The notes under the pieces: generated by a model | Told to the model about the DNA's origin: nothing | What the model saw: only the letters and a program-made list of their open reading frames with translations | Database searches by the model: none | Assembly (NCBI GenBank): GCA_017853205.1 | Contig: JAFMKB010000005.1 | Location: 1 to 64,000, forward strand | Direction: 5' to 3' | DNA: 64,000 bases | Source of the DNA: Gammaproteobacteria bacterium | Lineage (GTDB): Bacteria; Pseudomonadota; Gammaproteobacteria; Pseudomonadales; Pseudohongiellaceae | Position numbers and translations under genes: made by a program | Part shown: in pieces, positions 37 through 17,678 of the stretch | How positions within the stretch are numbered: position 1 is the stretch's first letter | Layout: every line of letters begins with the position of its first letter

Positions 37-1230
37 ATGACCGCGTTAAAACGGCTTAATGTGAAAGCTGTGTTGATCGCGATGGCCGCACTTGTGCTAA
101 CAAGCTGCGCGACCCATACCGTAAAATCCACAAGCTACACACCGATTCAGCGGGCGAGCGAAAACGTTGCCGAAGAATTTTTACTCGACGTTGGGGTGGC
201 TATCTTCGACCCGGGTTTAGACGGGCTAACTCGACGCGAAGAAGAAACCACCAATGCACAGATCCGCGTCGCGGAATCGCGCTACGTGCCCTATATGCTC
301 GCCGAAACATTACAGCGATCAGGCAACTGGGGCATCGTGCGCGTGCTGCCCAACGATCAGAGCCCGATCGACGTAGTGCTCAATGGCACGGTCCTCCACT
401 CTGACGGTGAAGCGATGACCCTGCGAGTCAATGTTTCCGACTCGAGTGGTCGTGCATGGTATACCAAAGACTACGACGAAGTTGTAAGCCGCTTCAGCTA
501 CGAGCCCAGCGAGCGTCAAAAAAATGATCCTTTTCAGGTCATCTATAACGCAATCGCCAACGACCTTCTCGCGTACTTAGAGCGCAACCTCGAACCTGCT
601 GAAATCACCGAGATTCGAACAATATCGGAGCTGCGTTTTGCGCGCAGTTTCGCGCCTGACGCGTTTAGCGACTACCTCACGCAAAACCGTAACGGACAGT
701 ATGAGATTACCGCGCTGCCGGCAGAAAACGACCCTCTTCTTTACCGCGTGCGCAGCATCCGAGAGCGTGACTTTATGTACATAGACACCGTCCAAGACTA
801 TTACGCGACCTATGCACGAGAAATGCGCATCCCCTACGACTCTTGGCGCGAGCAGAGCTACGACGCCACGATGACGCTGCGTGAGCTACAAGGCTCGGCG
901 CGACGTCGCTTTATCGCCGGCACGGCGGTGCTTCTTGGTGGCATTGCCGCCGCAGCTAATGGTCAGGACTATGTTACACAGACCGGCGGCGCGATTGGCG
1001 CAGGCGCAGGTGCCTATGTGATAAAAAGCGGATTCGATAAACTCGCCGAGGCGAAAATGCATCTCGAATCGCTGCAAGAACTCGGCGAATCGCTCGAGAA
1101 CGAAGTGGCCCCGCGAGTCATCGATCTCGAAGACCGCACGATTACGCTTACGGGTACGGTAGAGGAGCAGTACGCGCAATGGCGTGAGATACTAGCCGAC
1201 ATCTATGCGGCCGAAACCGGTCAGCTTTAA
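37..1230 (+). CDS. Lipoprotein with internal Gly/Ala-rich (glycine-zipper-like) hydrophobic segment
   Basis: Signal peptide plus lipobox LVLTSC; segment RRRFIAGTAVLLGGIAAAANGQ...GGAIGAGAGAYV. Confidence 0.75.
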   Translation: MTALKRLNVKAVLIAMAALVLTSCATHTVKSTSYTPIQRASENVAEEFLLDVGVAIFDPGLDGLTRREEETTNAQIRVAESRYVPYMLAETLQRSGNWGIVRVLPNDQSPIDVVLNGTVLHSDGEAMTLRVNVSDSSGRAWYTKDYDEVVSRFSYEPSERQKNDPFQVIYNAIANDLLAYLERNLEPAEITEIRTISELRFARSFAPDAFSDYLTQNRNGQYEITALPAENDPLLYRVRSIRERDFMYIDTVQDYYATYAREMRIPYDSWREQSYDATMTLRELQGSARRRFIAGTAVLLGGIAAAANGQDYVTQTGGAIGAGAGAYVIKSGFDKLAEAKMHLESLQELGESLENEVAPRVIDLEDRTITLTGTVEEQYAQWREILADIYAAETGQL

Positions 1231-1266
1231 ATAACTCCGTAACGCGACAAGCCAAAGAAGACAGCG

Positions 1267-2940
1267 ATGCCAGATCACAACGACCGCTTCGACGACCCCA
1301 GCGAGAGCGTCGACAACTCGCCTGCAGGTGCAGGACAAAGCCCGACTGCCCCCGAGCAGCAGGCAGCGCCGCAGCTAACTGAAGCGCCTCTGTTAAATAA
1401 AGAATCTCAGCGCGGTAACGAGCCTCAGCTCGATAAAGAGCCGCAGCCCCTCGATCAGTTCTCGGACCAAAAGCAGAGTCAGCCACCGTGGGTGTGGGCA
1501 GGGATGGGTGTACTCGTGCTGCTCGCTCTGTTCGTGATCTTTGTATTACCGGGTATCGTCGAAGACTATGAACTGCCGCTCGAGCGCCGGATCGAAGAAT
1601 CGCTTGCCGTTGCCCCAGTGCCAACTGCACAACGCACCGAGCCCGGCGTATCGCCCTTTTTAGAAGCGCAGCGCGCGCGTGAGCGCAAAGAGGCTCAAGA
1701 CGTGCTTGCTGAGTTGCTGAGCGTTCAATCAGAGCTCGATGAGTTACAAGTTACGCGGTGGGCGCAAACCGACTACGACGCCGCACTCGCGTTAGCACTG
1801 CAGGGTGACGAGAGCTACCGCGTACAGGAATTTGGCAGCGCGCGCGATGCCTACCAACAGGCGCTTGCCCAGCTAACAGAGACAAAGACCTCGGTACCGA
1901 CAGTGCTCGAGCAAATGCTCATTAGCGGCGAACAGGCGCTTATTGCGCGCGAGGCTGATGAAGCGATCGCCGCCTTCGAGCTCGCCGTCGTGCTGGAAGA
2001 CTCATTAGTCGATCTTGTCGACGGTGATTCGAACAAAGAAGCTCAGATCGGACTTACGCGCGCGTTAGCGCTAGAAGAATTGATCGCATTACTCGACTCG
2101 GCAGAACGTGCTGCAGGCAATCCCACGCAGCAGGTCTCACTACTGGAACAAGCGGTCGAATTAGATCCCTATAGCGTAGAGGCGCAGCAAGCGCTCGCAC
2201 AGGCTCGCGCAGACCAGCAGCAAGCACGCTTCGCAGCGATGATGTCCGAAGGCTACGCCCAGCTGCAGGCGGGAAATCCGCAGGAAGCGATCGCACGCTT
2301 CGAGGCGGCGGCAACTCTTGGTGTTAATGAGAACGAAGCCCGCGCAGCCATAGTGCAAACCGAAACCGAGATCGCTAATGCTAAAATAGCGGAACTGCAG
2401 CAGCGTGCACAGACAGCTGAGGCTAACGAGGCATGGCAGGAAGCCGTTGTTGACTACCAAGCGATTGTTGCCATCGACGCGACCTTACCTGCAATTAACC
2501 GAGCGCTAGACTACGCCGAAAAACGTGCGCGACTCGATGCGCTATTAATTGCCGCACTCGATTCACCAGAACGGTTTGCCGAGCAGGCGGTGTTTGAGGA
2601 GACACGCGATATTTATTTTACCGGGCGTACCATTGAAACTCCGGGCCCTCGGCTAATCAGTCAACTGGACGAACTGCAGGTGCTGCTCGAAAACTCACAG
2701 GTGCCGGTGTCAATTCGATTTATCTCCGACGGTCTTACCGAGGTGACGCTGCTGCGGGTTTCTGACCTCGGCACGTTTGAACAAACGCGCGTCGATCTCA
2801 AGCCTGGCACCTATGCTGCAGTAGGCCGTCGCGCAGGCTATCGCGAAGTACGCGAAGAATTTACCGTCGGGTTTGGGTTAACGCCAGCGGTTGTGATTGT
2901 ACGCTGTAGCGAAGCCATAAGCAGTGCGCTGGGACGTTAA
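1267..2940 (+). CDS. Single-TM protein with TPR-like repeats and PEGA-like C-terminus
   Basis: TM WVWAGMGVLVLLALFVIFVLPGIV; Ala/Glu-rich helical repeats; C-terminal LKPGTYAAVGRRAGYREVREEFTV resembles a PEGA unit. Confidence 0.7.
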   Translation: MPDHNDRFDDPSESVDNSPAGAGQSPTAPEQQAAPQLTEAPLLNKESQRGNEPQLDKEPQPLDQFSDQKQSQPPWVWAGMGVLVLLALFVIFVLPGIVEDYELPLERRIEESLAVAPVPTAQRTEPGVSPFLEAQRARERKEAQDVLAELLSVQSELDELQVTRWAQTDYDAALALALQGDESYRVQEFGSARDAYQQALAQLTETKTSVPTVLEQMLISGEQALIAREADEAIAAFELAVVLEDSLVDLVDGDSNKEAQIGLTRALALEELIALLDSAERAAGNPTQQVSLLEQAVELDPYSVEAQQALAQARADQQQARFAAMMSEGYAQLQAGNPQEAIARFEAAATLGVNENEARAAIVQTETEIANAKIAELQQRAQTAEANEAWQEAVVDYQAIVAIDATLPAINRALDYAEKRARLDALLIAALDSPERFAEQAVFEETRDIYFTGRTIETPGPRLISQLDELQVLLENSQVPVSIRFISDGLTEVTLLRVSDLGTFEQTRVDLKPGTYAAVGRRAGYREVREEFTVGFGLTPAVVIVRCSEAISSALGR

Positions 2941-2943
2941 TAG

Positions 2944-4983
2944 ATGAGTGAACGCCACGACGACGAAATCGAAGTCATCGACTTTGAGCCGGTTACCGAA
3001 ACCAAACGCGGTTTCTCTTATCGCTTCAGATGGCTGCACGCGTTTGTTGCCTGCTTTGGTGCAGCTGCGCTTATCTCGGCGTGGTTCGTGCTTACCGCAA
3101 AATCAGTTCTCGTTGAGGTGAACCCGATTACCGCGCAGATCAAAATCGACAACGGCTTTGCGCTGCGCGTTGGGGCACGTTATCTGATGCGTACCGGCGA
3201 TTACACGGTTGCCCTTAGTAACCCTGGCTTTCACGACGAAATTGCACCGCTTGTTATCAATGATGACGCGGCGCAGACACACAGTTATGACATGCGCAAA
3301 CTTCCAGGCATTGTGAGCATTAACGCCTTACCTGACGGCGGACGTGTGCGCATCGATGGCGTCGATGTGGGCGATGCGCCGCTAATCGACATTGATGTCG
3401 AGCCGGGTGCCCACGAAATCAGCGTCACCCGCGAGCGCTACTTACCGGCGACACAAACGATAGACATCGAAGGACGTCGGCAGCAGCAGGCGTTCGAACT
3501 CACGCTTGAGCCGGCGTGGGCTACCGTAAGTTTTACAACGACACCTTCCGGTGCCGAGCTTTTAGTTGACGGCGAAAGCATTGGGACAACTCCCCTTAAT
3601 GCCGAAATTTTGCAGGGACGCCGCGAGGTTACACTTAAACTTTCGGGCTATAAAGCGTGGCAGGAGCGGCTCGAACTTGACGCCGGGACAAGCCTCCTAG
3701 TCCCGCGGGTCGAACTAGAACCTGCCGATGGTCTCGTGTTTATTAACTCGCAGCCGAGCGGTGCGAGCGTCACCATTGGCGGTGAGTTTAAGGGACAAAC
3801 GCCGCTTGAGGTTGCGCTCGCACCTGATGTCAATCATGTGATCACCTTCTTTAAGAATGGCTACAGCTCGCAAGAGACACGGCTCACGACACGCGCAAAC
3901 GAGTCACGTGAGATCGAGATTGAACTTACGCCTGTGCTGTCGGATGTCAGGATTGCAGCAACGCCAAATGACGCCGAACTCTTCATCGATGGGATAAGCC
4001 GCGGCTCTGCTAATCAAACACTCGCGCTTATGGCGATTAGCCAGCGGGTCGAGATTCGCAAAGAAGGCTATGTACCCTACGAAGCGGAGTTCACGCCCCG
4101 TCCGGGTCTGCAGCAGGAGATTCGCGTAAATCTAACTTCGCTCGAAGACGCGCGTATCGCAGCGATCAAGCCGGTTATCACCAACCCCGCCGGTCAGCGC
4201 ATGAAACTCTTCAATCCCGATCGCTTTTCGATGGGGGCATCGCGCCGCGAAGCCGGTCGACGACCGAACGAAACGATCCGCGATATTATTCTGGAGCGAC
4301 CGTTCTATTTATCGCTCACCGAGGTAACCAACGCACAGTATCGTGAGTTCGACTCCGAGCATAATTCTGGTACGACCAATGGCATGACCCTTAACAACGA
4401 AAGCCAACCTGTTGTGCGAATCACGTGGCAACAGGCGACAGATTTTTGTAACTGGTTGAGCGAGCAAGAGGGGTTGACCCCTTTCTACACGGAGTCGGGA
4501 ATCGACGCGACAAGCAGCGGCTATCGACTCCCAACCGAAGCCGAGTGGGCGTGGGCGGCGCGGCGTGACACAGAAGACCCCACCGGCATGCGCAAATACT
4601 CTTGGGACGGGGAATTACCGCCGCCGGACGGTGCGGGAAATTTTGCCGACGTCAGCGCGCGTGCCTTCTTAGGCGATATACTCTTCGAGTATAACGACCG
4701 CTCGCCTGTCACCACCGCGGTGGGAAGCTACAGCGCCGATCATCATGGCCTATTTGATATGGCAGGCAATGTTGCCGAATGGGTCAATGATTATTACGGT
4801 GCGAGCGGCAGCCTCGGCGTCGAGCGAGATCCGCTCGGTCCTGACGCTGGTCAATTTAGAGTTATTCGCGGTTCGAGTTGGGCGCACGGCACGATTACTG
4901 AGCTACGCCTGTCGTTCCGTGATTTTGGTGAAGAAGCGCGCGATGATGTGGGTTTCCGCGTCGCACGTTACCTCGAAGATTAG
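2944..4983 (+). CDS. Membrane-anchored PEGA-repeat protein with C-terminal FGE-sulfatase/SUMF1 domain
   Basis: N-terminal TM; four PEGA-like repeats (PSGAELLVDGESIGTTPL, PSGASVTIGGEFKGQTPL etc.); FGE signatures YRLPTEAEWAWAAR, GLFDMAGNVAEWVNDYY, RVIRGSSW, GFRVAR. Confidence 0.88.
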   Translation: MSERHDDEIEVIDFEPVTETKRGFSYRFRWLHAFVACFGAAALISAWFVLTAKSVLVEVNPITAQIKIDNGFALRVGARYLMRTGDYTVALSNPGFHDEIAPLVINDDAAQTHSYDMRKLPGIVSINALPDGGRVRIDGVDVGDAPLIDIDVEPGAHEISVTRERYLPATQTIDIEGRRQQQAFELTLEPAWATVSFTTTPSGAELLVDGESIGTTPLNAEILQGRREVTLKLSGYKAWQERLELDAGTSLLVPRVELEPADGLVFINSQPSGASVTIGGEFKGQTPLEVALAPDVNHVITFFKNGYSSQETRLTTRANESREIEIELTPVLSDVRIAATPNDAELFIDGISRGSANQTLALMAISQRVEIRKEGYVPYEAEFTPRPGLQQEIRVNLTSLEDARIAAIKPVITNPAGQRMKLFNPDRFSMGASRREAGRRPNETIRDIILERPFYLSLTEVTNAQYREFDSEHNSGTTNGMTLNNESQPVVRITWQQATDFCNWLSEQEGLTPFYTESGIDATSSGYRLPTEAEWAWAARRDTEDPTGMRKYSWDGELPPPDGAGNFADVSARAFLGDILFEYNDRSPVTTAVGSYSADHHGLFDMAGNVAEWVNDYYGASGSLGVERDPLGPDAGQFRVIRGSSWAHGTITELRLSFRDFGEEARDDVGFRVARYLED

Positions 4984-5019
4984 TTGCATCGAGATTTTTT
5001 GAAAATTGGCACTAGAACT

Positions 5020-5067
5020 GACACGAGAATCGACACGAGAGCTGACACAAAAACTGACGCGAAAATT
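5020..5067 (+). repeat. Degenerate 12-nt tandem repeat, 4 copies
   Basis: GACACGAGAATC / GACACGAGAGCT / GACACAAAAACT / GACGCGAAAATT. Confidence 0.8.
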
Positions 5068-5082
5068 GAATTGGGCATTTAA

Positions 5083-5361
5083 ATGGCAGCACTAAGCAAT
5101 CTCAGTCTTGTTACCCGCGCAGCGTTACTGCTTGCGTGTGTGTGGGTGTTTAGCGCCGCCGCGCAAGACGCAGAACAGAACCCGCCACCGGCTGTCGAAA
5201 CAGAGGTGACGCAAGAGCCTGTACAAGAGACCGACTTGGCAGATAGCGGAAACAATGAAAACAACGATGGCGAAGTTGCCGAGGAAGAATCAGGCGCACG
5301 TTTTATTCCGACTGAAGAAATCTCGCAGGACTTTGGCGTGTCGTTTCCAGTTGACATTTAG
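5083..5361 (+). CDS. Small exported acidic protein
   Basis: Signal peptide RAALLLACVWVFSAAAQ; acidic low-complexity region; C-terminus FIPTEEISQDFGVSFPVDI; lies between co-directional genes. Confidence 0.6.
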   Translation: MAALSNLSLVTRAALLLACVWVFSAAAQDAEQNPPPAVETEVTQEPVQETDLADSGNNENNDGEVAEEESGARFIPTEEISQDFGVSFPVDI

Positions 5362-5394
5362 CAGCACGACGAAAAGAAGCAAAAAGGAATCACT

Positions 5395-6222
5395 ATGAGA
5401 CAGGGTTTGTTAAACGGCGCGCTCTTTCAGGTTGCGGCACTGATTACTTCAGTAATCATTGTGCACATGGCCTATGTGGCGGTTATACGTCCCAACGCTG
5501 AGATCGTCTCGCAGCAGCAAGAATACCTGCAGCAAACCGATCCCGAGTACACACCCGAGCGCTCCTTCTATGTTGTGCTTCGCGACTTCGAACAAGAGAC
5601 CTGCATCATTCTGTTTTTGTGGGCCACGGCGATTATCGGGCTAAAAGCAAAGCAGACACTCGGTGATCGTAAACTGCTCGACCGCAATTTACTTCAAGTC
5701 ACTGAGGGCACCAGTATTTTGCCGCAGGACGCACGCAACTTCGCGCGGCCACTGCAGGCGCTTAGTGACGACGAACGTGTCACGCTGTTGCCCCGAGCGC
5801 TTATCGCTGGATTGCATCGTTTTCAGAGCACACAAAGTATTCAAGACGTGTCGACCACGGTAAAAGATGTGTGCGAGTCCGAAGCTGATCGCATGGAAAC
5901 CGAATTGGCGATCGTGCGTTACATCGCGTGGGCGATTCCCTCGATTGGCTTCCTTGGCACCGTACGCGGCATCGGCACAGCGCTCGGTCAAGCCTATCAG
6001 GCGGTGAATGGCGATATCGTCGGCGTTACCGTAAGCCTCGGCGTGGCGTTTAACTCAACCTTCGTTGCGCTTGTGGTGAGCATCATATTGATGTTTGTTC
6101 TGCATCAGCTTCAGCTAGTGCAAGACAGATTAGTGCTCGACTGCCAAACCTATTGCGACGAACGCATGATTCGGCATCTGCGTGTGCCGAGTACAAAAAC
6201 CGACAACGAGTTAATTGCCTAA
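5395..6222 (+). CDS. MotA/TolQ/ExbB proton channel family protein
   Basis: YIAWAIPSIGFLGTVRGIGTALGQA...VTVSLGVAFNSTFVALVVSIILMFVLHQLQ is characteristic of MotA/TolQ/ExbB. Confidence 0.88.
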   Translation: MRQGLLNGALFQVAALITSVIIVHMAYVAVIRPNAEIVSQQQEYLQQTDPEYTPERSFYVVLRDFEQETCIILFLWATAIIGLKAKQTLGDRKLLDRNLLQVTEGTSILPQDARNFARPLQALSDDERVTLLPRALIAGLHRFQSTQSIQDVSTTVKDVCESEADRMETELAIVRYIAWAIPSIGFLGTVRGIGTALGQAYQAVNGDIVGVTVSLGVAFNSTFVALVVSIILMFVLHQLQLVQDRLVLDCQTYCDERMIRHLRVPSTKTDNELIA

Positions 6223-6256
6223 TACTGTGCGGTAAAAAGATCAGTTAAGGAGTGCA

Positions 6257-7546
6257 ATGTCACCGCAAATTTTAGAGCTAAACGATCACGGAATTACTTT
6301 CGGCAATGCCGAAGGCATTCGGCTGATTAGTCCGGGGTTTGCACTCGCTCGGGAAAAATCCCTCGTGCTTGGCGCGCAGGCTCAGGCGCAGTCGCGGCTA
6401 CATCCAAACGAAAGTCATAGCCGTTATTGGCAGGAACTGAGTCTCGACCCGCTGCCTGCAGGTCGCCTGCCCGGCAACCGCTTCCGCCACCTCGCCGATC
6501 TCGCCCATGCGCATCTCAATGGGCTTGCCGTCGACGCTGATGCCAACACCGACAATGTTATTGTAAGCGTGCCCGGGAGTTTTTCGCGGCAGCAGCTCGG
6601 TATTCTTCTTGGCATCGCCAAACAGACGCCGCTTGCCATTACAGGTCTTGTCGATTCGGCGCTTATCTTCGCGGCCGGCGCGCAGTCGATAAACGCGAGC
6701 GACGATACAATCGTCGTTCAGCAACAACTGCATCAGACACTTTTTACGCTAGTGAGTTGGCACGAGGGCATGCTTAAGGTCGACACCTCGGTCGCGCTTC
6801 CCTCAAGCGGTAGTCAGAATGTCATCGACGCGCTCATGCAGCTGAGCACAGAGTTGTTTATCGATCAGTGCCGGTTTAACCCGCAGCATGACGCACCGAC
6901 CGAACAGCTTTTATACAACGCGCTGCCAGCATGGCTCGCCGCCGATGCGTCGAGCGGCAGTCTGATGTTAGAGCTTAGCGCCGACGGTGCGGTCCATAAT
7001 GCTAAGCTGCCTTATGAGAGTTTAGTCTCCTCGCTTGCCCCGATCCGGCAGCGACTTTTAGCGCAGCTAAACGCGATGCTAAGCCGAGCGCCACATGCGC
7101 AGATCGTTCTGTGTTCAACCTTGAGCGAGCTGCCCGGCTTAATGCCGCAGCTCGCACAGTTGGCGCCGGTAACAACACTTAATGCCGAACAACACCTTGC
7201 GAATAGCCTTACGCATAGCGATCAAATTTTGAGTGGCGGCGCGAGCAGTCTGTGTAAGACGCTTTCACTGTCTCGGCCTGCCTCGGCGTCGCCGACAACG
7301 TCAGAGGCCGCGAGCGAGACAGACGGCGCTGCAGGAGACGCGCTCGCGCAGGTCGGTTTAAGTGCTCAGGGTGCGCAGGCAGCTGCGCTGCTTAGTAGTC
7401 TGCGCGTTAATGGCGAGCGTGTCGCAAACGCAGCAGAACTTACTCTCAAACAGGGCGACTCGCTTACGCTGAGCATCGACAGCGAAGCAGACGGACAGAA
7501 CACGCTAACGTTTAATCTAAAAAAGCTAACCAATGGCGCAGACTAA
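6257..7546 (+). CDS. Hsp70/actin-fold-like protein (degenerate)
   Basis: NVIVSVPGSFSRQQLGILLGIAKQTPLAITGLVDSALIFAA resembles the Hsp70/PilM core; SD AAGGAG upstream. Confidence 0.6.
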   Translation: MSPQILELNDHGITFGNAEGIRLISPGFALAREKSLVLGAQAQAQSRLHPNESHSRYWQELSLDPLPAGRLPGNRFRHLADLAHAHLNGLAVDADANTDNVIVSVPGSFSRQQLGILLGIAKQTPLAITGLVDSALIFAAGAQSINASDDTIVVQQQLHQTLFTLVSWHEGMLKVDTSVALPSSGSQNVIDALMQLSTELFIDQCRFNPQHDAPTEQLLYNALPAWLAADASSGSLMLELSADGAVHNAKLPYESLVSSLAPIRQRLLAQLNAMLSRAPHAQIVLCSTLSELPGLMPQLAQLAPVTTLNAEQHLANSLTHSDQILSGGASSLCKTLSLSRPASASPTTSEAASETDGAAGDALAQVGLSAQGAQAAALLSSLRVNGERVANAAELTLKQGDSLTLSIDSEADGQNTLTFNLKKLTNGAD

Positions 7547-8642
7547 ATCACAGAAAAGTCAGAAGAGACAAGTAAGCCCGCTAAGCCTCGCGTTTCTCGA
7601 CGTGATGTTCTGCGGCTTTGGCGCGGTGATTTTACTTTTTCTCATTCTTGATCACGCCGATACCGTGGCCGCGGTCACAGTCGATCCGAGCATCGCCTCG
7701 GAGGTAAGTCTGCTCGAAGAGGAGGTGCTAGAGGGCGCGCTCAATCTTGAGCGAATTCGCAATACCGTCGCCGAGGTAAGCCTCGAGGTAGTAACCGCCG
7801 AAGGACTCGCGCGCGAGATTCAAGAGCAGATACAAACCTTTATGCAAGAGCTCGCCGCGCTCGAAAATTCCAGCACGGCAACCGTCGAAAGTATCGAGAG
7901 GCTGCGCGCCGATGTGCAAGCGCTCGAAGAAGAACTGCTGCGCCTTCAGGCGAGCGCGCTGGATCAGGAAGGCAACAGCGTTCGTCAGTTTTTAGGCGAC
8001 GGCAGTCGGCAGTATCTCACCGGTCTTTTTCTCGGCGGGCAGCGAATCCTCATTTTAGTCGACAGCTCGACCAGCATGCTCGACGAAACGCTGGTGAATA
8101 TTATTCGCACGCGCAATATGAGCGACGAGCGCAAGCGCGAAGCGCCAAAGTGGCAGCGCGTGGTAAGGACGGTGGACTGGGTGAGCACACAGCTGCCGAT
8201 CACGAGTCGGTATCAACTGTGGCAGTTTAGTAATACTACTGACACATTGTTAGACGGCGACAAATTTACGTGGCAAGAAGTCGCCGACCGCGACGGCCTC
8301 AATGTAGGCATTGAGAACATGAAGGCGCTCGTGCCCAATAACGGTACCGACCTCGATCAGGTGTTTCGCGCGATTTCAAACATGGATGAGCCGCCGGACA
8401 ATATTTTTCTTATCACCGACGGGCTTCCGACCCTCGGCGGCCGCGGCAAAACGACAGGGCTCATAACGCCCAAAGATCGCATGGACCTGTTCGAAGACGC
8501 GATAAAAGGTTTGCCTAATAATGTGCCAGTAAACGTTGTACTCATGCCGCTCGAGGGTGACCCGAGCGCGTCGGCAGCCTATTGGCAACTCGCGCAAATT
8601 ACTCGCGGGTCGTTTATCACGCCGTCTAAGGATTGGCCCTGA
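7533..8642 (+). CDS. TM/coiled-coil/VWA protein, TolR/MotB-like anchor (VWA1)
   Basis: N-terminal LAFLDVMFCGFGAVILLFLIL; long coiled coil; MIDAS ILVDSSTSM; 14-nt overlap with upstream CDS. Confidence 0.82.
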   Translation: MAQTKSQKSQKRQVSPLSLAFLDVMFCGFGAVILLFLILDHADTVAAVTVDPSIASEVSLLEEEVLEGALNLERIRNTVAEVSLEVVTAEGLAREIQEQIQTFMQELAALENSSTATVESIERLRADVQALEEELLRLQASALDQEGNSVRQFLGDGSRQYLTGLFLGGQRILILVDSSTSMLDETLVNIIRTRNMSDERKREAPKWQRVVRTVDWVSTQLPITSRYQLWQFSNTTDTLLDGDKFTWQEVADRDGLNVGIENMKALVPNNGTDLDQVFRAISNMDEPPDNIFLITDGLPTLGGRGKTTGLITPKDRMDLFEDAIKGLPNNVPVNVVLMPLEGDPSASAAYWQLAQITRGSFITPSKDWP

Positions 8643-9646
8643 TGCTTAAGCGCAGCCGCGAGACAGAGTCGTTTACCGTATCGTTTCTCGATGTCGCGTC
8701 CTGTGGCTTTGGCGCGATGATTATTTTGTTAATGCTCGCCAAGCCCTCGCAGCCAGCGCCTCTGGAGGACGCCGAGGCCGCGCCGGCGGCGGTTATCTCC
8801 GAACTTCAAGAGCAGCTTTTCGAGATTCGAGGCGAGACGCGCGTGGTTAACCGCGAGCTCAACGCCAAGCAAGAGCAGCTTTCGTCTATAAAAGAACGTG
8901 TGGCGCGCCTTCGTCGTGACCTTAGCGAGGTGCAGGGCGAGTTTCAAAGCTCGAAGCAGCTTTCGGATGAGACCACCGACGAAATTGGTAAACTGTCGCT
9001 CGCACAGCAGTCGCTTACCGAAGAGATGCAGCGCCTTGCCGCTAACAGCCGCGCGCCGGAGAATAATGCGATCGGCGGCATACCTGTCGACAGCGAATAC
9101 ATTATCTTTGTCATCGATACCTCGGGGTCGATGTTCAATAACCCGAGCTGGGGCAAAATGCTCGGGGTGATCGAGGACACCCTGAATGTCTATCCCGACG
9201 TGAAGGGAATACAGATCATGAACGACATGGGCGACTACATGTTCGACTCGTTTCGAGGCCAGTGGATTCCGGACACACCTGCGCGCCGCACACAGATCTT
9301 GTCAACCTTGCGTAACTGGAACCCGTTTAGCAACTCAAGCCCTGTGGAAGGGGTGACCCGAGCGATCAATACGTTCTATGCGCCCGATAAAAAGATCAGC
9401 ATTTACGTTTTGGGCGATGATTTTCAACCCGGCGGCTCGATTCGTGACGTATTACGTACTATAGATAGGATCAATGTCGAAGACGCCGACGGCAATCGTC
9501 TCGTGCGTATTCACGGCATTGGGTTTCCAACAATCTTTGCGGGTCCGGCACGGTTTCAACAAAGCGTCTATCGCTACGCAACGCTTATGCGCGAGATGAC
9601 ACAGCGAAATGGTGGTACATTCGTAGGCCTGAATGATTTTCAATGA
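8642..9646 (+). CDS. TM/coiled-coil/VWA protein, TolR/MotB-like anchor (VWA2)
   Basis: N-terminal VSFLDVASCGFGAMIILLMLA; coiled coil; MIDAS FVIDTSGSM; TGATG overlap with VWA1. Confidence 0.82.
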   Translation: MLKRSRETESFTVSFLDVASCGFGAMIILLMLAKPSQPAPLEDAEAAPAAVISELQEQLFEIRGETRVVNRELNAKQEQLSSIKERVARLRRDLSEVQGEFQSSKQLSDETTDEIGKLSLAQQSLTEEMQRLAANSRAPENNAIGGIPVDSEYIIFVIDTSGSMFNNPSWGKMLGVIEDTLNVYPDVKGIQIMNDMGDYMFDSFRGQWIPDTPARRTQILSTLRNWNPFSNSSPVEGVTRAINTFYAPDKKISIYVLGDDFQPGGSIRDVLRTIDRINVEDADGNRLVRIHGIGFPTIFAGPARFQQSVYRYATLMREMTQRNGGTFVGLNDFQ

Positions 9647-9650
9647 GTGC

Positions 9651-10271
9651 ATGATGAAAAATTCAATTCGATCAATCGCTAAAACGCTGTGCACAGCCTT
9701 CTGCGCGCTCGTGCTTGCCAGCTGCGGCGTAAGCAAAGTCGTTATCGAAGGCAGTTATCCAAGCCCCAATGTGGCAAAGCTGCCGCTGTCTCTGGCCGTG
9801 GTTTACGACGAGCCCCTGCGTAATTTTAGCTACATAGAGTATTCCGAAACCGGCGCCGAAGAATTTAATATCGCCAGTGGCGCATCGCATGTCGCGCTAT
9901 TCGACGCGGTGCTGCCGGCTATGTTTGAGTCGGTGGTCGAGGCGGCAAGTCTTGAGGAAGCCGAGTCGCTCGGCGTCGATGCGATTTTCGTGCCCGCAAT
10001 CGATGAGTTTCAACTCGCACTGCCTAATAAAACCAAGCTTGATGTTTACGAGGTATGGATTCGCTACAACATGCGCTTAGTTAGCGGTGATGGCGCGCCG
10101 ATCGCTGACTGGGTGCTAACCTCGTACGGCAAGACGCCTACCGAAAGTTTGCGTACAGCCGATGCGGCAATCAACGACGCCGCGGTAGTCGCGCTACGTG
10201 ATCTTGCGTCGAGCTTTTCGTTAAGTTTTGCGCAAGTGCCCGAAGTGCGCGATTGGTTAGCGTCGCGCTAA
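9651..10271 (+). CDS. Lipoprotein of unknown function
   Basis: Signal peptide plus lipobox LVLASC; start chosen after the VWA2 stop. Confidence 0.65.
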   Translation: MMKNSIRSIAKTLCTAFCALVLASCGVSKVVIEGSYPSPNVAKLPLSLAVVYDEPLRNFSYIEYSETGAEEFNIASGASHVALFDAVLPAMFESVVEAASLEEAESLGVDAIFVPAIDEFQLALPNKTKLDVYEVWIRYNMRLVSGDGAPIADWVLTSYGKTPTESLRTADAAINDAAVVALRDLASSFSLSFAQVPEVRDWLASR

Positions 10272-10316
10272 TTGAGTTGCTAAATGAGTCGCGAAAGAAG
10301 AGTTAAGGAGGTTATT

Positions 10317-10961
10317 GTGAAAGCATTATTGCCCCTGTTGGTAGTGTTACTAGCCTCGTGTACTAGCACCACGGTTGATGAGTTTCGCCAAGGCGAGACG
10401 GGGATCAACAGCGATGAGTCTATTGTTATCCTCGGACGCAGACATTCGAGCGATTACGAAACACGCGCCGAATTTGTCGACTGTGTAGGCGAGCGCATGA
10501 CAACCGGTAACGACTCGATTTCAGTTATCCCCGAAAAAGAATTTGTCGACGCCATGTTCCCGTGGTTCGAGCCGCGCACCGCGCCGCTCAGAACCCAAGA
10601 CCTCGAGCGGCTGATGGCAGAGCCAGTTGTTGCCGAAAAAATGGCCGAGTTCGGCGTACGGTATATGGTGTGGCTCGATGGTTTCACCGAAACCAGCGGC
10701 CGAACGGGCACAATTTCTTGCACCGTGGGCCCTGGCGGCGCCGGTTGCTTCGGGTTTGGTTCGTGGGAGGACGACTCGACCTTCGACGCGCGCGTGTGGG
10801 ATGTGGCCTCGCTGCAAAACGTAGGTACTATAAGCACCGACGCCTCAGGCCAATCGTATTTGCCCGCGCTCGTTATTCCCATTCCACTGATCGCACGAGT
10901 CGAGGCGAATGCCTGCGTCCGCCTTGCCGATCAGCTCAAACAGTTTGTCAATGGCGAATGA
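10317..10961 (+). CDS. Lipoprotein of unknown function
   Basis: GTG start 6 nt after SD AAGGAGG; lipobox VLLASC. Confidence 0.65.
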   Translation: MKALLPLLVVLLASCTSTTVDEFRQGETGINSDESIVILGRRHSSDYETRAEFVDCVGERMTTGNDSISVIPEKEFVDAMFPWFEPRTAPLRTQDLERLMAEPVVAEKMAEFGVRYMVWLDGFTETSGRTGTISCTVGPGGAGCFGFGSWEDDSTFDARVWDVASLQNVGTISTDASGQSYLPALVIPIPLIARVEANACVRLADQLKQFVNGE

Positions 10962-10977: not shown

Positions 10978-12423
10978 ATGACTCGCCCACTCGCACTTCT
11001 CACTCTTCTCTGCCTTGCGCTCACCACTGCCGGCTGCGCCGTCAACCCTGCCACTGGCGGCGCAAACTTAGTGTTGATGACCGAAAACAAAGAGAAAGAA
11101 ATCGGCCGCGAAGAACATGAGAAAGTGCTCGCCTCGATGCCCATTTATAAAGACGACGTATTGCAGGCCTATGTCGAGCGCGTGGGTAATGACATTGCCG
11201 CGGTAAGCCACCGTCCCGATTTAGACTATACGTTCACTATTATCGATAATCCCGAGATCAATGCCTTCGCGCTACCCGCGGGCTATGTCTACGTTAATCG
11301 CGGTCTGCTCACTTTCATGAACTCTGAGGCAGAACTCGCTGCGGTGCTCGCACACGAAATCGGCCACATCACGGCGCGTCACGCGGTGCAACAGCAAGCG
11401 CGCGGCGGCTTGGCTAAAACCGCCTCGACCGTTGGCGGCATCGTGACGGCTGTCGCCACTGGCAGTGGCTATGTTGGTTCGCAGATAAGCGACATCGCTT
11501 CTATTTGGGCCCAGAGCGGACTGAGCGGTTTTGGCCGCGAAGACGAGCTCGAAGCCGATAGCCTTGGTGCCGAATACATCGTTAACGCAGGTTACGATCC
11601 CGCGGCCATGATCGAGGTGATTACCGTTCTCAAAAACCAAGAAGACTTTAATCGCAAGGTCGCGGGCACGGGAGGGGGCTATCATGGGCTGTTCGCCACT
11701 CACCCGCGCAACGACAAACGGCTTCAGGAAGCGATCGAAGACGTCGCGACTCTGGGCGGCAACGCGATAACCCGTACCGACAACACTGAGTTTAGAACGG
11801 CACTGGACGGCCTCGTTGTTGGCCAGAGCGCGCAGTCGCAGCGCAGCGACGAACGCAATCGCTACTATCAGTCGCTTCTGGGCTATACCCTGGTGTTTCC
11901 GCCCGAGTGGACTGTTGCGGAGACGACCACCACCGCCACAGGCTCGCTCGAGGGTGCCGGCTCGCTGAGAATTGAGGCGCAGCAGCTGCAGGATAATCTG
12001 GACCCCAGACTCTTTATTAAAGAAAAGCTCGGCATCGAAAATTTGCAGCAAAGCGAGCCGCTTGAGCAGTTTAGGCTCGTAGGGCACACGGGCCTCGTGC
12101 AGACAGCTGAGGGCACACGCGAGCGCGTCGCCGTAATCTATCTTGGCCGCCGCGCAATGATTTTTCGCGGGCAGGCCAGTAGCGACGAAGTCGATGCCGA
12201 AATACTCGCCTCGATTCGCTCGTTCCGTGCAATTCAGCGTGGCGAAGGCGCTGGCGTCGAAGCCAAAATTCGTTTCGTTCAGGCAAGCGAGTTTTTCGAC
12301 TTTAAGATAGTTGCCCAGCAGAGCCGCATCGCGAATTATCCCGAGGAGACGCTGCGACTGCTGAACAATTATTATCCCTCCGGCAATCCTGCGCCCGGCA
12401 CGTGGATTAAGCTCGTCGAATAG
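10978..12423 (+). CDS. M48-family zinc metalloprotease, lipoprotein
   Basis: Lipobox TTAGC; HEIGH zinc motif; E-rich third-ligand region EDELEADSLGAEY. Confidence 0.88.
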   Translation: MTRPLALLTLLCLALTTAGCAVNPATGGANLVLMTENKEKEIGREEHEKVLASMPIYKDDVLQAYVERVGNDIAAVSHRPDLDYTFTIIDNPEINAFALPAGYVYVNRGLLTFMNSEAELAAVLAHEIGHITARHAVQQQARGGLAKTASTVGGIVTAVATGSGYVGSQISDIASIWAQSGLSGFGREDELEADSLGAEYIVNAGYDPAAMIEVITVLKNQEDFNRKVAGTGGGYHGLFATHPRNDKRLQEAIEDVATLGGNAITRTDNTEFRTALDGLVVGQSAQSQRSDERNRYYQSLLGYTLVFPPEWTVAETTTTATGSLEGAGSLRIEAQQLQDNLDPRLFIKEKLGIENLQQSEPLEQFRLVGHTGLVQTAEGTRERVAVIYLGRRAMIFRGQASSDEVDAEILASIRSFRAIQRGEGAGVEAKIRFVQASEFFDFKIVAQQSRIANYPEETLRLLNNYYPSGNPAPGTWIKLVE

Positions 12424-12471
12424 CCCTCTCTCATGCTGTCCCTCACCGTCCAGCGAGAGTAAACTGTGGGG

Positions 12472-13689
12472 ATGGCAAGAAACGAAGAAAACCAAGATCA
12501 GGTCTCGGATAGCGTAAACGAGGAAGCCGATTCCGGCGCCCACGAACAAACGCTCGAAGAGCTGATGGATCTGACCTTTGCAGAAGATCGGCGCGAACAA
12601 GAACTCGCCGACTTGGCTGCGCAGTCAGCGGTCACCACCCCGCAAAAGATACTCATTATTGGTGCCTCATGGGTCGGCGACATGATAATGGCGCAGAGCC
12701 TGTTTATCCTGCTCAAGCGCACCCGCCGCGATTGCCACATTACCGTATTAGCCCCTGCGTGGACCGAGCCACTTCTCGCGCGCATGCCCGAGGTCGACGA
12801 AAGCCTGGTGCTGCCATTCGATCACGGCGACCTTAAACTCGGCGAGCGTCGCCGTTTCGGCAAAAGCCTCGCCGACAAAGGGTTTACCCACGCCATCGTG
12901 CTGCCCAATTCTTTCAAGTCTGCACTGATCCCGCGTTTTGCCGGCATTAAAACGCGCATCGGTTGGCGCGGCGAGGCCCGCGGCCTGCTACTTACCGACT
13001 GCCGGCGACTCGACAAGACCAAATACCCACGTATGGTTGAGCGCTTTGCCGCACTAGGCCTTTCGGCGGACGCGCGCCTGCCCGAACGAGTGCCAGACCC
13101 AAATCTGTTGGTTACGCGACCGATGGTCGACAAGGTATTAGCCAAGTTTGGAATAGAGACCGCCGGCGACTGGCCTAGACGTCTGCTCGCCATGTGCCCC
13201 GGCGCCGAGTTTGGCTCTTCAAAGCAGTGGCCTGTTAGCCATTTCGCGACGCTTGGCGCAACACTGATCGCCGATGGGTGGCGTGTTGTAATTATGGGCT
13301 CGGCAGGGGATGCGGCGATAGCACAGGAAATTCACGATGGCATCGCGCAGAAAGTAGGGCATCCGCTGATTAATTGCTGCTTTAATTTGGCAGGCAAGAC
13401 GTCGCTCGCCGAGGCAATTGATTTAATGGCGGCATGTACTATGGCGCTTTCAAACGACTCTGGTCTCATGCACGTTGCAGCGGCGCTAAATTTACCGGTC
13501 GTTGCGCTTTACGGTTCTACCTCGCCGGAGTTTACGCCACCACTCGCGCCGATATCGAGAATCCTAACGACACCAATCGAATGCCGGCCGTGTTTCGATA
13601 GAGAGTGTCGCTTTGGCCACAAACGTTGTATGACCGATATTGACCCGTCGCGAGCACTGACTGCGGTACTCGAATTGTATGCCAAGTAA
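12472..13689 (+). CDS. waaF: ADP-heptose:LPS heptosyltransferase II
   Basis: KILIIGASWVGDMIMAQSLFILLKR; NDSGLMHVAAALNLPVVALYGSTSPEFTPPL. Confidence 0.88.
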   Translation: MARNEENQDQVSDSVNEEADSGAHEQTLEELMDLTFAEDRREQELADLAAQSAVTTPQKILIIGASWVGDMIMAQSLFILLKRTRRDCHITVLAPAWTEPLLARMPEVDESLVLPFDHGDLKLGERRRFGKSLADKGFTHAIVLPNSFKSALIPRFAGIKTRIGWRGEARGLLLTDCRRLDKTKYPRMVERFAALGLSADARLPERVPDPNLLVTRPMVDKVLAKFGIETAGDWPRRLLAMCPGAEFGSSKQWPVSHFATLGATLIADGWRVVIMGSAGDAAIAQEIHDGIAQKVGHPLINCCFNLAGKTSLAEAIDLMAACTMALSNDSGLMHVAAALNLPVVALYGSTSPEFTPPLAPISRILTTPIECRPCFDRECRFGHKRCMTDIDPSRALTAVLELYAK

Positions 13690-13744
13690 CAGAATAGGAT
13701 TAGCCGCCTAGCGCGGGCGAGACAAACATAAAAAGAGAATTGCA

Positions 13745-14869
13745 GTGCGAGTTTTAATCGTTAAAGTTTCGTCGCTCGGCGACATTATTCATACGCTTCC
13801 CGCCGTTACAGACGCCCGACGTGCGCGCCCCGATATAATTTTTGACTGGGTGGTTGAAGAAAATTTTGTTGAGGTGCCGAAATGGCATCCAGCGGTCGAT
13901 CGCGTCATTCCCGTTGCCTTTCGACGCTGGCGAAAAACACCGCTGCGCTCACTAGGCGGTATTGAATTCAAAAAATTTAAGGATGAGATTAACCGCGAAC
14001 ATTACGATCTTGTTATAGACGCACAGGGACTTATTAAAAGCGGGGTAATAAGCCGTATGTCACGCGGCTTAACCGTTGGCTTAAGTGACAGCACAGTGCG
14101 TGAACCTTTGGCGACGCTGTTTTACAACAAAGTGTATTCGGTGCCTAAAACAGAACACGCGGTTGATCGGGTACGTCAGCTTTTCGCGCGGGCGCTGCAG
14201 TATGAATATAACCCTCGCACAATAGACTACGGTGTAAGCCACGAGGCGATTGCAAAACAAAACAGGCATGGCACGGTAGAAAGGCAGAAAAGCAGCGCTA
14301 AGCAAGTTGTTTTCTTACACGGTACAACCTGGGCAACCAAACACTGGCCCGTCGATTATTGGTGCGCCCTTGCGCGACACGCAGCCGAGGCGGGCTTCGA
14401 CGTCTTACTCCCGTGGGGCGACGAGGCCGAACGCGTCCGTGCCGAAAACATCTCGAGCGCTACCGGCGCAACAGTTTTGCCCAAGCTTACGTTGAGCGGA
14501 CTCGCCGCCGAACTTGCAGCCGCCAGCGGGGTCGTTGCAGTGGACACTGGCCTTGGTCATTTAGCGGCCGCACTCGCGCGCCCTACACTGTCGATTTATG
14601 GGCCAACCGATCCCGCGCTTTCGGGTACCTATGGCGTCACGCAAAAGCATCTGCGTTCTACTTTTGCTTGTTCGCCTTGCCTCAAAAAAACCTGCACCTA
14701 CAATGGAGCCGCCGTGCTCGCGAACGACAAAGCCGTGACACCGCCGTGCTTTACGACAAATCCGCCGGCCGAGGTGTGGCAGCAGTTCGAAGCATTACTT
14801 GCAGAGGCTGCGTTGGGTCGACCTAAAAGCTATTACGACACCAGTGACTATGGCGGCGTAGGAAAATGA
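13745..14869 (+). CDS. waaC: LPS heptosyltransferase I
   Basis: MRVLIVKVSSLGDIIHTLPAVTDA; VDTGLGHLAAALARPTLSIYGPTDP; GTG start. Confidence 0.88.
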   Translation: MRVLIVKVSSLGDIIHTLPAVTDARRARPDIIFDWVVEENFVEVPKWHPAVDRVIPVAFRRWRKTPLRSLGGIEFKKFKDEINREHYDLVIDAQGLIKSGVISRMSRGLTVGLSDSTVREPLATLFYNKVYSVPKTEHAVDRVRQLFARALQYEYNPRTIDYGVSHEAIAKQNRHGTVERQKSSAKQVVFLHGTTWATKHWPVDYWCALARHAAEAGFDVLLPWGDEAERVRAENISSATGATVLPKLTLSGLAAELAAASGVVAVDTGLGHLAAALARPTLSIYGPTDPALSGTYGVTQKHLRSTFACSPCLKKTCTYNGAAVLANDKAVTPPCFTTNPPAEVWQQFEALLAEAALGRPKSYYDTSDYGGVGK

Positions 14870-16068
14870 GTGCCGGCATGAACCTCGTATTTATTATTTA
14901 TTCCTACTTTCCCCACGGTGGGCAGCAGCGCGACTTTATGCGCATTTTAAACGAGTGCCGCGCGCGCGGTCATAACATTACCGTGTACACCTTGAAGTGG
15001 ACCGGCGACAAACCCGACGGCGTCACAATTCATCTTGTGCCAGTGAAGGCATTAACGCGCACGCGTCTTTATAAAAAATTTACTCGCTGGGTTGAGTCTA
15101 AAATCGAGAGAATTTCTGAGAGCCCGAATGAAAAACAGAGCGGGGTTCATAATCAGACCATCGTAGGCTTTAATAAGATGCCGGGTCTTGATGTGTACTA
15201 CGCCGCCGACCCCTGTTTTGCCGAGATGGCAGCTACACAGCGTGGTAGCTACTACCAATACAGCAGTCGCTTTAAACACTTTAGCGCCTATGAAGAGGCA
15301 GTATTCGGCGGCGACAGCGCTACCGAGGTTCTGTACCTTTCGCCACAGCAAAGAGCGGCGTTTAAAAGCTATTACCCCGAATGTGAGAGTCGATTGCATG
15401 CACTACCCGCAGGGCTTGCCGAGGACCGCAGACTCGACGATCGATCGCCTGCGGCGCGTGAGGCGCGCAAGAAAGCTGCGCGGGAAAAGCTAAAGAATGA
15501 ATTAAACATCAGCGAAACAGCGACACTCGTCATTCAGATTGGTTCTGGATTTAAAGTGAAAGGCGTCGACCGCGCGCTGCGCGCAATCGCTTCGCTCCCA
15601 CGAGAAACACACAGCACTGTTCATTACCTTTTGGTTGGTTCAGGTAAACCTGCTTCTTATTTGAGACTCGCCAAAAAATTAAATATAGCCAATAAGGTAA
15701 CCATTGTAGAGGGACGCGATGACGTGCCCGAACTGCTCGCCGCCGCCGACCTTATGCTACACCCTGCCTACCGAGAGAGCGCAGGTTATACTTTGCTCGA
15801 GGCGATAGTCGCCGGCTTACCCGTCTTGGCAACCGAAACCTGCGGCTATGCGTACCATATAGTGCAGGCCAATGCGGGCGCCGTCTGCCCTGAGCCTTTC
15901 TCGCAAGCGTCGCTGAATAAGATACTTTTGGACATGCTCGAGCAATTGCCTACGGCAAAGTGGTCGGCAAACGGGCTCGCTTATGGCGCCGAAGAAAGTC
16001 TCTACACCATGCCCCAGGCCGCAGCGGATTTTATAGAGCGTTTTGAAAGCGGAACCCCTCGCGGGTAG
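14866..16068 (+). CDS. waaG: LPS core glucosyltransferase, GT4 family (WaaG-like)
   Basis: MNLVFIIYSYFPHGGQQRDFMRI; LLHPAYRESAGYTLLEAIVAGLPVLAT. Confidence 0.82.
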   Translation: MSAGMNLVFIIYSYFPHGGQQRDFMRILNECRARGHNITVYTLKWTGDKPDGVTIHLVPVKALTRTRLYKKFTRWVESKIERISESPNEKQSGVHNQTIVGFNKMPGLDVYYAADPCFAEMAATQRGSYYQYSSRFKHFSAYEEAVFGGDSATEVLYLSPQQRAAFKSYYPECESRLHALPAGLAEDRRLDDRSPAAREARKKAAREKLKNELNISETATLVIQIGSGFKVKGVDRALRAIASLPRETHSTVHYLLVGSGKPASYLRLAKKLNIANKVTIVEGRDDVPELLAAADLMLHPAYRESAGYTLLEAIVAGLPVLATETCGYAYHIVQANAGAVCPEPFSQASLNKILLDMLEQLPTAKWSANGLAYGAEESLYTMPQAAADFIERFESGTPRG

Positions 16069-16857
16069 ATGGGTATGCGTTACGCGAACAAAGAGTTTAA
16101 AGAATTTTTTGCCAGCGGCGACCCTTTTGAAATACTCGAGGCTATACAGGGCGAGGTGTTTCGCGTCGTTGATGGACGCAAAACCTTTCGCTTTGACTTA
16201 AACGGCAGCCGCTATTTTGCTAAGCTGCATCGCGGTGTCGGTTGGCGTGAGATTGCGAAAAACCTTTTTCATTTTCGCTGGCCTATTGTCGATGCCGAAA
16301 ACGAGTGGCGCGCTGTGCAGCGTTTAAAAAGCCTCGGTGTGTCGACGTTGGAGCCAGTAGCCTATGGCGTAATTGGTCTAAATCCTGCGACGCGCCGCTC
16401 CTACCTTGTGACGCAGGATCTTACCGACACAATTAGCCTCGAAGACCTTGGTAAACAATGGTTAACGCAGCCGCCATCGCCAGCATTAAAGCGCGCGCTG
16501 ATCAAGCGCGTTGCGACTATCGCTCAGACGCTTCACAGTCACGGCATGTGTCACCGCGACTTGTATTTATGCCATTTTTTGCTCCATCAAAACGAACCTG
16601 AGCTGCGCGTCTCGCTTATCGATCTGCACCGAGCGTTTTCGAGCCCGCGTCTGAGAAGGCGCTGGCTTATAAAAGATATTGGTAGCCTTTATTACTCTTG
16701 CCTGCATCTCAACCTATCCCAACGCGATCTTCTGCGGTTCATTCGCTATTACGACCCGCGTGGGCTTCGTTATGCCATTGGCCGAAACGCTGATTTTTGG
16801 CAGGCTGTATCGACAAAAGCTAGGTCACTTTACAGACGTCACGGCGATGCCGCATGA
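16069..16857 (+). CDS. waaP: LPS core heptose(I) kinase
   Basis: FEILEAIQGEVFRVVDGRKTFRF...; HGMCHRDLYLCHFLLH kinase motif. Confidence 0.88.
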   Translation: MGMRYANKEFKEFFASGDPFEILEAIQGEVFRVVDGRKTFRFDLNGSRYFAKLHRGVGWREIAKNLFHFRWPIVDAENEWRAVQRLKSLGVSTLEPVAYGVIGLNPATRRSYLVTQDLTDTISLEDLGKQWLTQPPSPALKRALIKRVATIAQTLHSHGMCHRDLYLCHFLLHQNEPELRVSLIDLHRAFSSPRLRRRWLIKDIGSLYYSCLHLNLSQRDLLRFIRYYDPRGLRYAIGRNADFWQAVSTKARSLYRRHGDAA

Positions 16858-17678
16858 AGGCGCTACTCGATACCAAGGCGCTCACCGCAGCACTGACAGC
16901 ATTTGATGAATCGCTTACTTGTGCGACGGAGCAAAAGCCTAGCGCCGACATTTATAGACAGGCCGAGAAGCGCGCCTATTTTGCAGTAGACCTCGCCGCG
17001 CTCACCGAGCTCGGTGCGCGTGCGCCCGAGCAGAATTTTTCGCAGCGCTTGGCTGGCGCAGTTGCCGACGTTTTGCAGAACCCCGATGCGGCAATTGAGG
17101 CAGGCAAAATACTCAAACACGATCGCACCACCACCGTTGCAAAAATTCAGGTGATGGGACTCTCTCTGGTAATAAAGCGCTACAACCGCAAATCGCTCCT
17201 GCATGGCTTTACCCGTCTGTGGCGCACCACCCGTGCGCGTCGCAGCTTTGATGCTGCTCGCTGGCTGTTGCAACACGGCATTCTCACCGCCCTGCCTCTC
17301 GCCTTTATCGAGAACCGCTCTTTTGGTGCCCTTAATCACGGGGCTTACTATCTCAGTCTTTTTCACCCAGGTGACAACTTGCTTCGTCAACTCAATAGCG
17401 GTGCTATCAAAAATCACGACTTTGACGCGCTTCTTAGTGAGTTTAAACAGCTTTTACGCCTGCTACGCCGCGCGAACGCGGCCCATGGCGATATGAAAAT
17501 CAGCAACTTTATCTTTCACAGCAATCGGTTGTGCGTTCTGGACTTAGACGCCACCCAGCCCTACAAGCGTGCATGGCAGGCGAGACGCGCCTTTCGAAAA
17601 GATTTAGCGCGGTTTGAGCGCAATTGGGTTGGGTCGGATTTTGAGTCAGTAGTGGCCGAGTTTTTAAAAAATTTCTAA
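16854..17678 (+). CDS. InaA/WaaP-like lipopolysaccharide kinase family protein
   Basis: HGDMKISNFIFH and VLDLDATQPYKRAWQARRAFRKDLARF; ATGA overlap with waaP. Confidence 0.75.
   Translation: MKALLDTKALTAALTAFDESLTCATEQKPSADIYRQAEKRAYFAVDLAALTELGARAPEQNFSQRLAGAVADVLQNPDAAIEAGKILKHDRTTTVAKIQVMGLSLVIKRYNRKSLLHGFTRLWRTTRARRSFDAARWLLQHGILTALPLAFIENRSFGALNHGAYYLSLFHPGDNLLRQLNSGAIKNHDFDALLSEFKQLLRLLRRANAAHGDMKISNFIFHSNRLCVLDLDATQPYKRAWQARRAFRKDLARFERNWVGSDFESVVAEFLKNF

Follow-up and report, generated by a model that had tools for sequence, protein, structure and literature searches.

The 64,000-base window analyzed in this study starts at the first base of contig JAFMKB010000005.1 (assembly GCA_017853205.1, a 2.54 Mb draft genome of the family Pseudohongiellaceae) and opens with a gene cluster encoding an ExbB/TolQ/MotA-like protein (g5), two transmembrane (TM) proteins with von Willebrand factor type A (VWA) heads (g7, VWA1, and g8, VWA2), and several lipoproteins. 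The best-supported general reading of this cluster is a device driven by the proton-motive force (PMF) that acts on outer-membrane lipoproteins, and we consider it probable that its products form a trans-envelope force transducer powered by the PMF and working like Tol-Pal. The genes were designated g1 (37–1230) through g10 (10284–10961), with g0 preceding g1 and g11 following g10; all features given below are on the + strand. An earlier note on this DNA had listed ten consecutive genes on the same strand, and all ten open reading frames (ORFs) were found at the positions given there, separated by no more than 99 nt or overlapping slightly. The cluster is bigger than first noted, with an extra gene on each side, g0 and g11, and the earlier note had missed both of these as well as a universal C-terminal motif of g4. 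The core of the cluster is g0-g1-g2-g3-g4-g5-g7-g8, and g6, g9, g10 and g11 are accessory.

The ExbB-like protein and the VWA pair

The g5 protein (5395–6222) matched the MotA_ExbB family (PF01618) above its cut-off (E = 3e-14; 53.5 bits against a cut-off of 22.9). Its pore threonines, Thr189 and Thr222 (codons from 5959 to 6060), were each invariant in 115 of 115 sequences and align with threonines of the TolQ and ExbB proteins of the same genome. VWA1 (7533–8642) and VWA2 (8633–9646; TTG start, with an ATG at 8642 also possible) each have a TM helix followed by a coiled coil, seen in the sequence, and a VWA head. The TM aspartate was invariant in both proteins, Asp23 of VWA1 (7599–7601) in all 114 sequences covering it and Asp20 of VWA2 (8690–8692) in 122 of 122, and both residues aligned to the aspartate of TolR and ExbD from this genome. 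The two VWA genes occur as a pair, and no ExbD or TolR gene was found within the cluster; four ExbD genes are located elsewhere in the genome. Based on this comparison of sequences, the action of the VWA proteins as B-type partners of g5, which the earlier note had proposed, is well supported.

Such a pairing has been published. TPH-vWA/TolQ-like pairs were reported in a study seeded on Idiomarina (Williams-Jones 2025, PMC12204202), in which, according to its text, TolR was absent and AlphaFold 3 models of 5:2 stoichiometry placed the helices of the VWA proteins inside the pore. The TPH-vWA family, as described in that text, and the cluster have in common a TolQ-like gene beside a heterologous TM-VWA pair, a TM aspartate, a threonine ring and the absence of tolR/exbD, and the cluster core and this family are very probably the same. 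The central inference of the earlier note was therefore correct yet not new. A 5:2 assembly is probable for this cluster as well, by analogy with the published modeling of such pairs. The text and legend of PMC12204202, to which the comparison was limited, are silent on g0–g4, g6, g9–g11, the metal sites and the FPxDI tail described below, and von Willebrand domains go unmentioned in a 2026 review of ExbB-family motors (PMC12905483). The literature searched, which was mostly open-access and for PMC12204202 comprised the text and legend, yielded no account of the full composition of the cluster, g0, the TolB-like g1, the FPxDI tail, the intact VWA metal sites, the dead FGE domain, the Hsp70 fold of g6 without glycine loops or the exchange of g6 for an FHA-like domain. 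The term 'undescribed' in the earlier note holds only in part, since the motor/vWA core appeared in print in 2025, whereas the whole machine was not found in that literature.

The assignment of the VWA heads drew on several lines of evidence. The VWA_2 profile matched VWA1 just under its cut-off (E = 3e-5) and VWA2 very weakly, and the Pfam VWA family was matched above cut-off in a distant VWA1 homologue. In searches against the PDB, the full-length VWA1 profile retrieved only coiled-coil and helical proteins, head-only profiles gave weak matches, and the g5 profile retrieved nothing relevant by sequence. Because the PDB profile searches were weak, the VWA identity rests on the Pfam matches in homologues and on conservation of the metal sites. 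In the alignments, integrin-type metal sites were intact in both VWA heads almost without exception, with the DxSxS, Thr/Ser and Asp residues of VWA/MIDAS domains in place. The conserved site of VWA1 consists of D177, S179, S181, T272 and D296 (8061–8420), and that of VWA2 of D162, S164, S166 and D262 (9116–9418; invariant in 122 of 122). In integrins, metal sites of this type hold an acidic residue of the ligand.

A candidate for such a ligand is encoded by g4 (5083–5361), a small exported or membrane-anchored core peptide that is variable in length and sequence and ends in FPVDI (5344–5358). The last residues were [F/Y]-P-x-D-I-COOH in 109 of the 109 homologous tails found, by a search pattern that demanded an acidic residue at position -2 and did not impose Asp or Ile alone. 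No tail was obtained from 5 of 114 loci; three of these are truncated where the contig stops, and in one (L181) g5 has changed place. The same tail is carried by the short single-helix peptides of minimal systems. This pattern of conservation suggests that the g4 tail is a docking peptide and candidate ligand, and the metal site of the VWA heads may be its most attractive receptor candidate. A second conserved tail is located in the C-terminal end of VWA1 (8558–8642), where a Trp-Pro pair was invariant in 116 of 116 sequences, usually as -DWP-COOH.

In Mdn1, a motor with a MIDAS domain, bonds with ligands are strengthened by force (catch bonds) (PMC8837202). Mdn1 is similar in being a motor that ends in a MIDAS domain gripping an acidic ligand, but it is a eukaryotic AAA motor, and the likeness is an analogy only and no evidence for g4 binding.

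Lipoproteins, scaffold proteins and the cytosolic part

Since the window opens at a contig edge, the leading gene g0 is severed from the rest of the cluster. In a close relative (G024, locus L037) whose VWA1 is 99% identical, g0 is located directly ahead of g1, and the g0 of the window genome itself was found on contig C98 (25424–26599), at 91% identity. The g0 product, a lipoprotein, has a long disordered stretch rich in Ser, and its C-terminal part is conserved (DDDVVARQLREAAMxEPDPELREALWxEYRxYTG).

The second core lipoprotein, g1 (37–1230), has a lipoprotein cysteine (Cys24) that was invariant in 71 sequences. Its AlphaFold 2 (AF2) model (pLDDT 86.5) contains a domain for which TolB accounted for most of the best 18 Foldseek matches, with LptE accounting for most of the others (best E = 2.7e-4, probability 1.0). 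This domain was read as similar to the N-terminal domain of TolB on the grounds of how large the match is and where it lies; the remainder of the model is a long helical hairpin. The TolB_N profile did not match g1, and its sole match in the genome was the true TolB on contig C14.

Two core proteins are anchored in the membrane. The g2 product (1267–2940) is a single-TM protein with a periplasmic part that appears TPR-like, a weak call (PF13428, E = 8e-4, below cut-off). The g3 product (2944–4983) consists of a cytosolic tail with a sequence motif, a TM segment, four PEGA repeats (E = 3e-50) and an FGE fold (FGE-sulfatase, E = 3e-38). It is nearest by sequence to FGE and PorK, and it is anchored in the inner membrane rather than being a lipoprotein. 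No cysteine was present in the FGE active-site segment in 75 of the 75 homologues in which this segment was found, and with both catalytic cysteines gone, the FGE domain of g3 is taken to be structural.

The accessory genes g9 (9633–10271) and g10 (10284–10961) encode further lipoproteins, and g11 (10978–12423, in an ORF that opens at 10909) encodes an M48 metallopeptidase (PF01435, E = 2e-38) that is likely a lipoprotein and comes after g10 in most loci. The earlier note had treated its lipoproteins as one outer part, which does not hold, as g1 belongs to the core and g9 and g10 are accessory, so that the three are not equivalent. Shared ancestry of g1, g9 and g10 was considered and rejected, the hhalign comparisons having given signal-peptide or weak matches only.

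The accessory protein g6 (6257–7546), located between g5 and VWA1, had been called Hsp70-like, and its predicted structure agrees with this call: the AF2 model (pLDDT 90.5) matched Hsp70 ATPase domains in Foldseek with E values of about 1e-15. The call rests on fold and not on sequence, and a sequence profile search of g6 against the PDB found nothing relevant. Like Hsp70/DnaK, g6 has the ATPase fold, but it lacks the Hsp70 glycine loops (QLHQ is found at that place) and the substrate-binding domain, and its C-terminal part is FHA-like.

Among loci with g6, the motif [ILV]x[PAV]x(1,2)[FY]x[PAR] was present in the g3 tail in 92 of 96 (shuffled sequences, mean 3.6 and maximum 11); the motif was chosen after inspection and hence has the status of a hypothesis. 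It was missing in seven g3 proteins from loci without g6, effectively six, since the L187 gene is truncated and its tail unseen. A similar motif in the g2 tail was too loose for a claim. In the gammaproteobacterial lineages without g6, g3 bears an N-terminal, cytosolic FHA-like domain instead, the profile of which aligned to that of the C-terminal domain of g6 with an hhalign probability of 80; the Pfam FHA matches were all below cut-off. A genome-wide search for g6 in 12 genomes assigned to such lineages, one of which (G188) is without the cluster, found none in 11 and only partial matches elsewhere in the twelfth.

Gene order, distribution and genomic context

The order g1–g11 was repeated in nearly all of about 120 loci examined. 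All 20 relatives that were fetched had g1–g8 in the identical order, at identities as low as 30–50%, with g9–g11 next in nearly all. The same order was seen in practically every one of 80 additional loci, which came from Pseudohongiellaceae, Halieaceae, Microbulbiferaceae, Cellvibrionaceae and unclassified Gammaproteobacteria. At least 571 loci were matched in all, and carriers have 8 to 12 genes per row in a fixed order. Two loci, L101 and L103, have the cluster in two pieces, with g4–g11 together and g1 and g3 jointly elsewhere in the same genome; loss of g1–g3 in these loci was thereby disproved for g1 and g3, and the genes need not be adjacent to co-occur. The genes thus co-occur almost without exception, split clusters included, as expected from the earlier note, which had named a lack of co-occurrence as grounds for rejecting its proposal. 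In L181 the ExbB-like gene is located behind VWA2 and not ahead of g6, the sole rearrangement of that type seen.

VWA1 was found in at least 54 of 60 genomes of the same genus and in 4 of 37 genomes of other families of the order, and VWA2 adjoins VWA1 in nearly every genome of these sets that has VWA1. In an even sample of 370 genomes of the class Gammaproteobacteria, 35 had VWA2 matches, about 27 of which were judged convincing. Outside the Gammaproteobacteria, one genus of another class of Pseudomonadota has the minimal set g0-g1-g2-g3-g4-g5-g7-g8 at about 30% identity (28–29% for g1). The cluster is chromosomal; no VWA2 was found on plasmid or phage records, and there was one weak ExbB match on a Rhizobium plasmid. 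In a tree of g5, g7 and g8 the named families each cluster, with the deep long-branch parts unsure, which is consistent with mainly vertical descent. Two records titled 'Klebsiella pneumoniae' (L094, CAMCRC010000006.1) and 'SAR86 cluster bacterium' (L106, NVVJ01000017.1) also carry the cluster, and these species titles are probably wrong, since the tree groups them with Pseudohongiellaceae-like metagenome-assembled genomes.

Directly downstream of the cluster (12466–17678) are genes for two heptosyltransferases, a group-1 glycosyltransferase and two Kdo/WaaP-type kinases, resembling a lipopolysaccharide (LPS) core locus. A homologue of the first LPS-type gene adjoins the cluster only in the closer relatives of the window. 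The genes flanking minimal systems are unrelated metabolic, transport or nuclease genes.

Proposed mechanism and alternative explanations

In the proposed mechanism, a pentamer of g5 would enclose the TM helices of the VWA1/VWA2 pair, which would substitute for ExbD/TolR, and ion flow along the path of invariant Thr and Asp residues may turn or swing the pair. The coiled coils would carry the VWA heads towards the peptidoglycan and outer membrane, where the heads may bind an acidic ligand through the metal site, the best candidate being the invariant Asp of the g4 -FPxDI-COOH tail. The load would be borne by the lipoproteins g0, with its disordered linker and conserved helical C-tail, and g1. 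The inner-membrane proteins g2 (TPR) and g3 (PEGA, dead FGE) may serve as a scaffold; the folds of g1 and g3 were shown, and their contacts are predicted. In many species the pseudo-Hsp70 g6 may be a cytosolic clamp on the g3 N-tail. PilM binds the N-tail of the inner-membrane protein PilN, and g6 would similarly recognize a short motif in the N-tail of a partner in the inner membrane. The likeliest task is the energized organization of the outer membrane or its lipoproteins, aided by the accessory lipoproteins and the M48 protease. This assignment is the weakest step of the proposal and was placed ahead of gliding or adhesion and of secretion as a first choice. The cluster resembles Tol-Pal in combining an ExbB-family motor that would act on outer-membrane lipoproteins with a TolB-N-like domain in g1, but homologues of TolR, TolA and Pal and a TolB propeller are absent from it; Tol-Pal is encoded elsewhere in the genome.

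Several points weigh against this proposal. The evidence consists of single-chain models and sequence comparison, and both the g4-MIDAS contact and the PilM-PilN-like docking of g6 on the g3 tail are predicted contacts. The g3 motif was defined after the sequences had been inspected, and the count of its absences comes from few lineages. The ExbD profile (PF02472) did not match g7 or g8, the TolB-N likeness of g1 concerns one domain only, at the level of a modeled fold that is invisible to sequence profiles, and a standard Tol-Pal system coexists in the genome. The genes flanking the cluster gave no common functional clue.

Other explanations were considered on the same evidence. A surface gliding or adhesion motor, in which the VWA heads or pulled partners drive surface adhesins, seems unlikely. 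In Myxococcus, the AglRQS motor works with the VWA adhesin CglB, and the cluster has lipoproteins together with an ExbB-type motor whose VWA heads have kept their metal sites intact; the text of PMC12204202 suggests that vWA transducers may have a role resembling gliding. However, the VWA heads here are anchored to the inner membrane and not to the outer surface, and no adhesin or polysaccharide genes were found among the genes flanking the cluster. We regard as improbable a type IX-like secretion machine, with the motor and a PEGA-FGE ring exporting proteins through the outer membrane. The type IX secretion system (T9SS) combines a PorK/GldK ring with a 5:2 motor (GldLM), and the FGE part of g3 is similar to PorK/GldK (GldK, E = 5.5e-33; PDB PorK, E = 6e-27). 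However, the GldK score of g3 (114.9 bits) is far below the NCBIfam cut-off of 350 bits, g3 has PEGA repeats and is an inner-membrane protein and not a lipoprotein, and the cluster has neither another T9SS protein nor an outer-membrane channel, and no cargo tag is known.

An assembly that is no motor at all, in which the ExbB-like protein merely anchors the VWA pair for signaling or as a static structure, has little probability: ion flow was deduced from sequence, and the lack of glycine loops and the FHA-like domain of g6 are features of an adaptor, but the Thr and Asp of the proton path have been kept without exception across two classes, which would be needless in a static assembly. Least probable is a Zorya-like anti-phage defense. 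ZorAB belongs to the same superfamily and forms a 5:2 motor in which the B subunit is modified, and g5 weakly matched ZorA (E = 3e-4), but the cluster lacks relatives of ZorB, ZorC, ZorD and ZorE and any nuclease or helicase effector, and no PADLOC family fits its other proteins beyond coiled-coil noise. Its absence from plasmids and phages, mostly vertical pattern and long-fixed gene order also argue against defense.

Returning to the force transducer acting on outer-membrane lipoproteins, a further and more tentative possibility is that the cluster encodes a machine of its own kind. MIDAS-headed rotor arms might grip and release the -FPxDI-COOH tail of g4, possibly through a catch bond, and so pull the TolB-like and disordered-linker lipoproteins, with cytosolic gating by the dead Hsp70.

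ExbB-family motors drive flagella, Tol-Pal, TonB, gliding and Zorya. If true, the proposal would add a further branch of this family, with B subunits that carry integrin-like heads and with conserved parts specific to it in the outer membrane, periplasm and cytosol. Carriers number in the hundreds among gammaproteobacterial genomes; many are marine and several come from cultured strains, which makes the role of the cluster directly testable, and the invariant C-terminal Asp of g4 offers a sharp biochemical test of how the load may be gripped.

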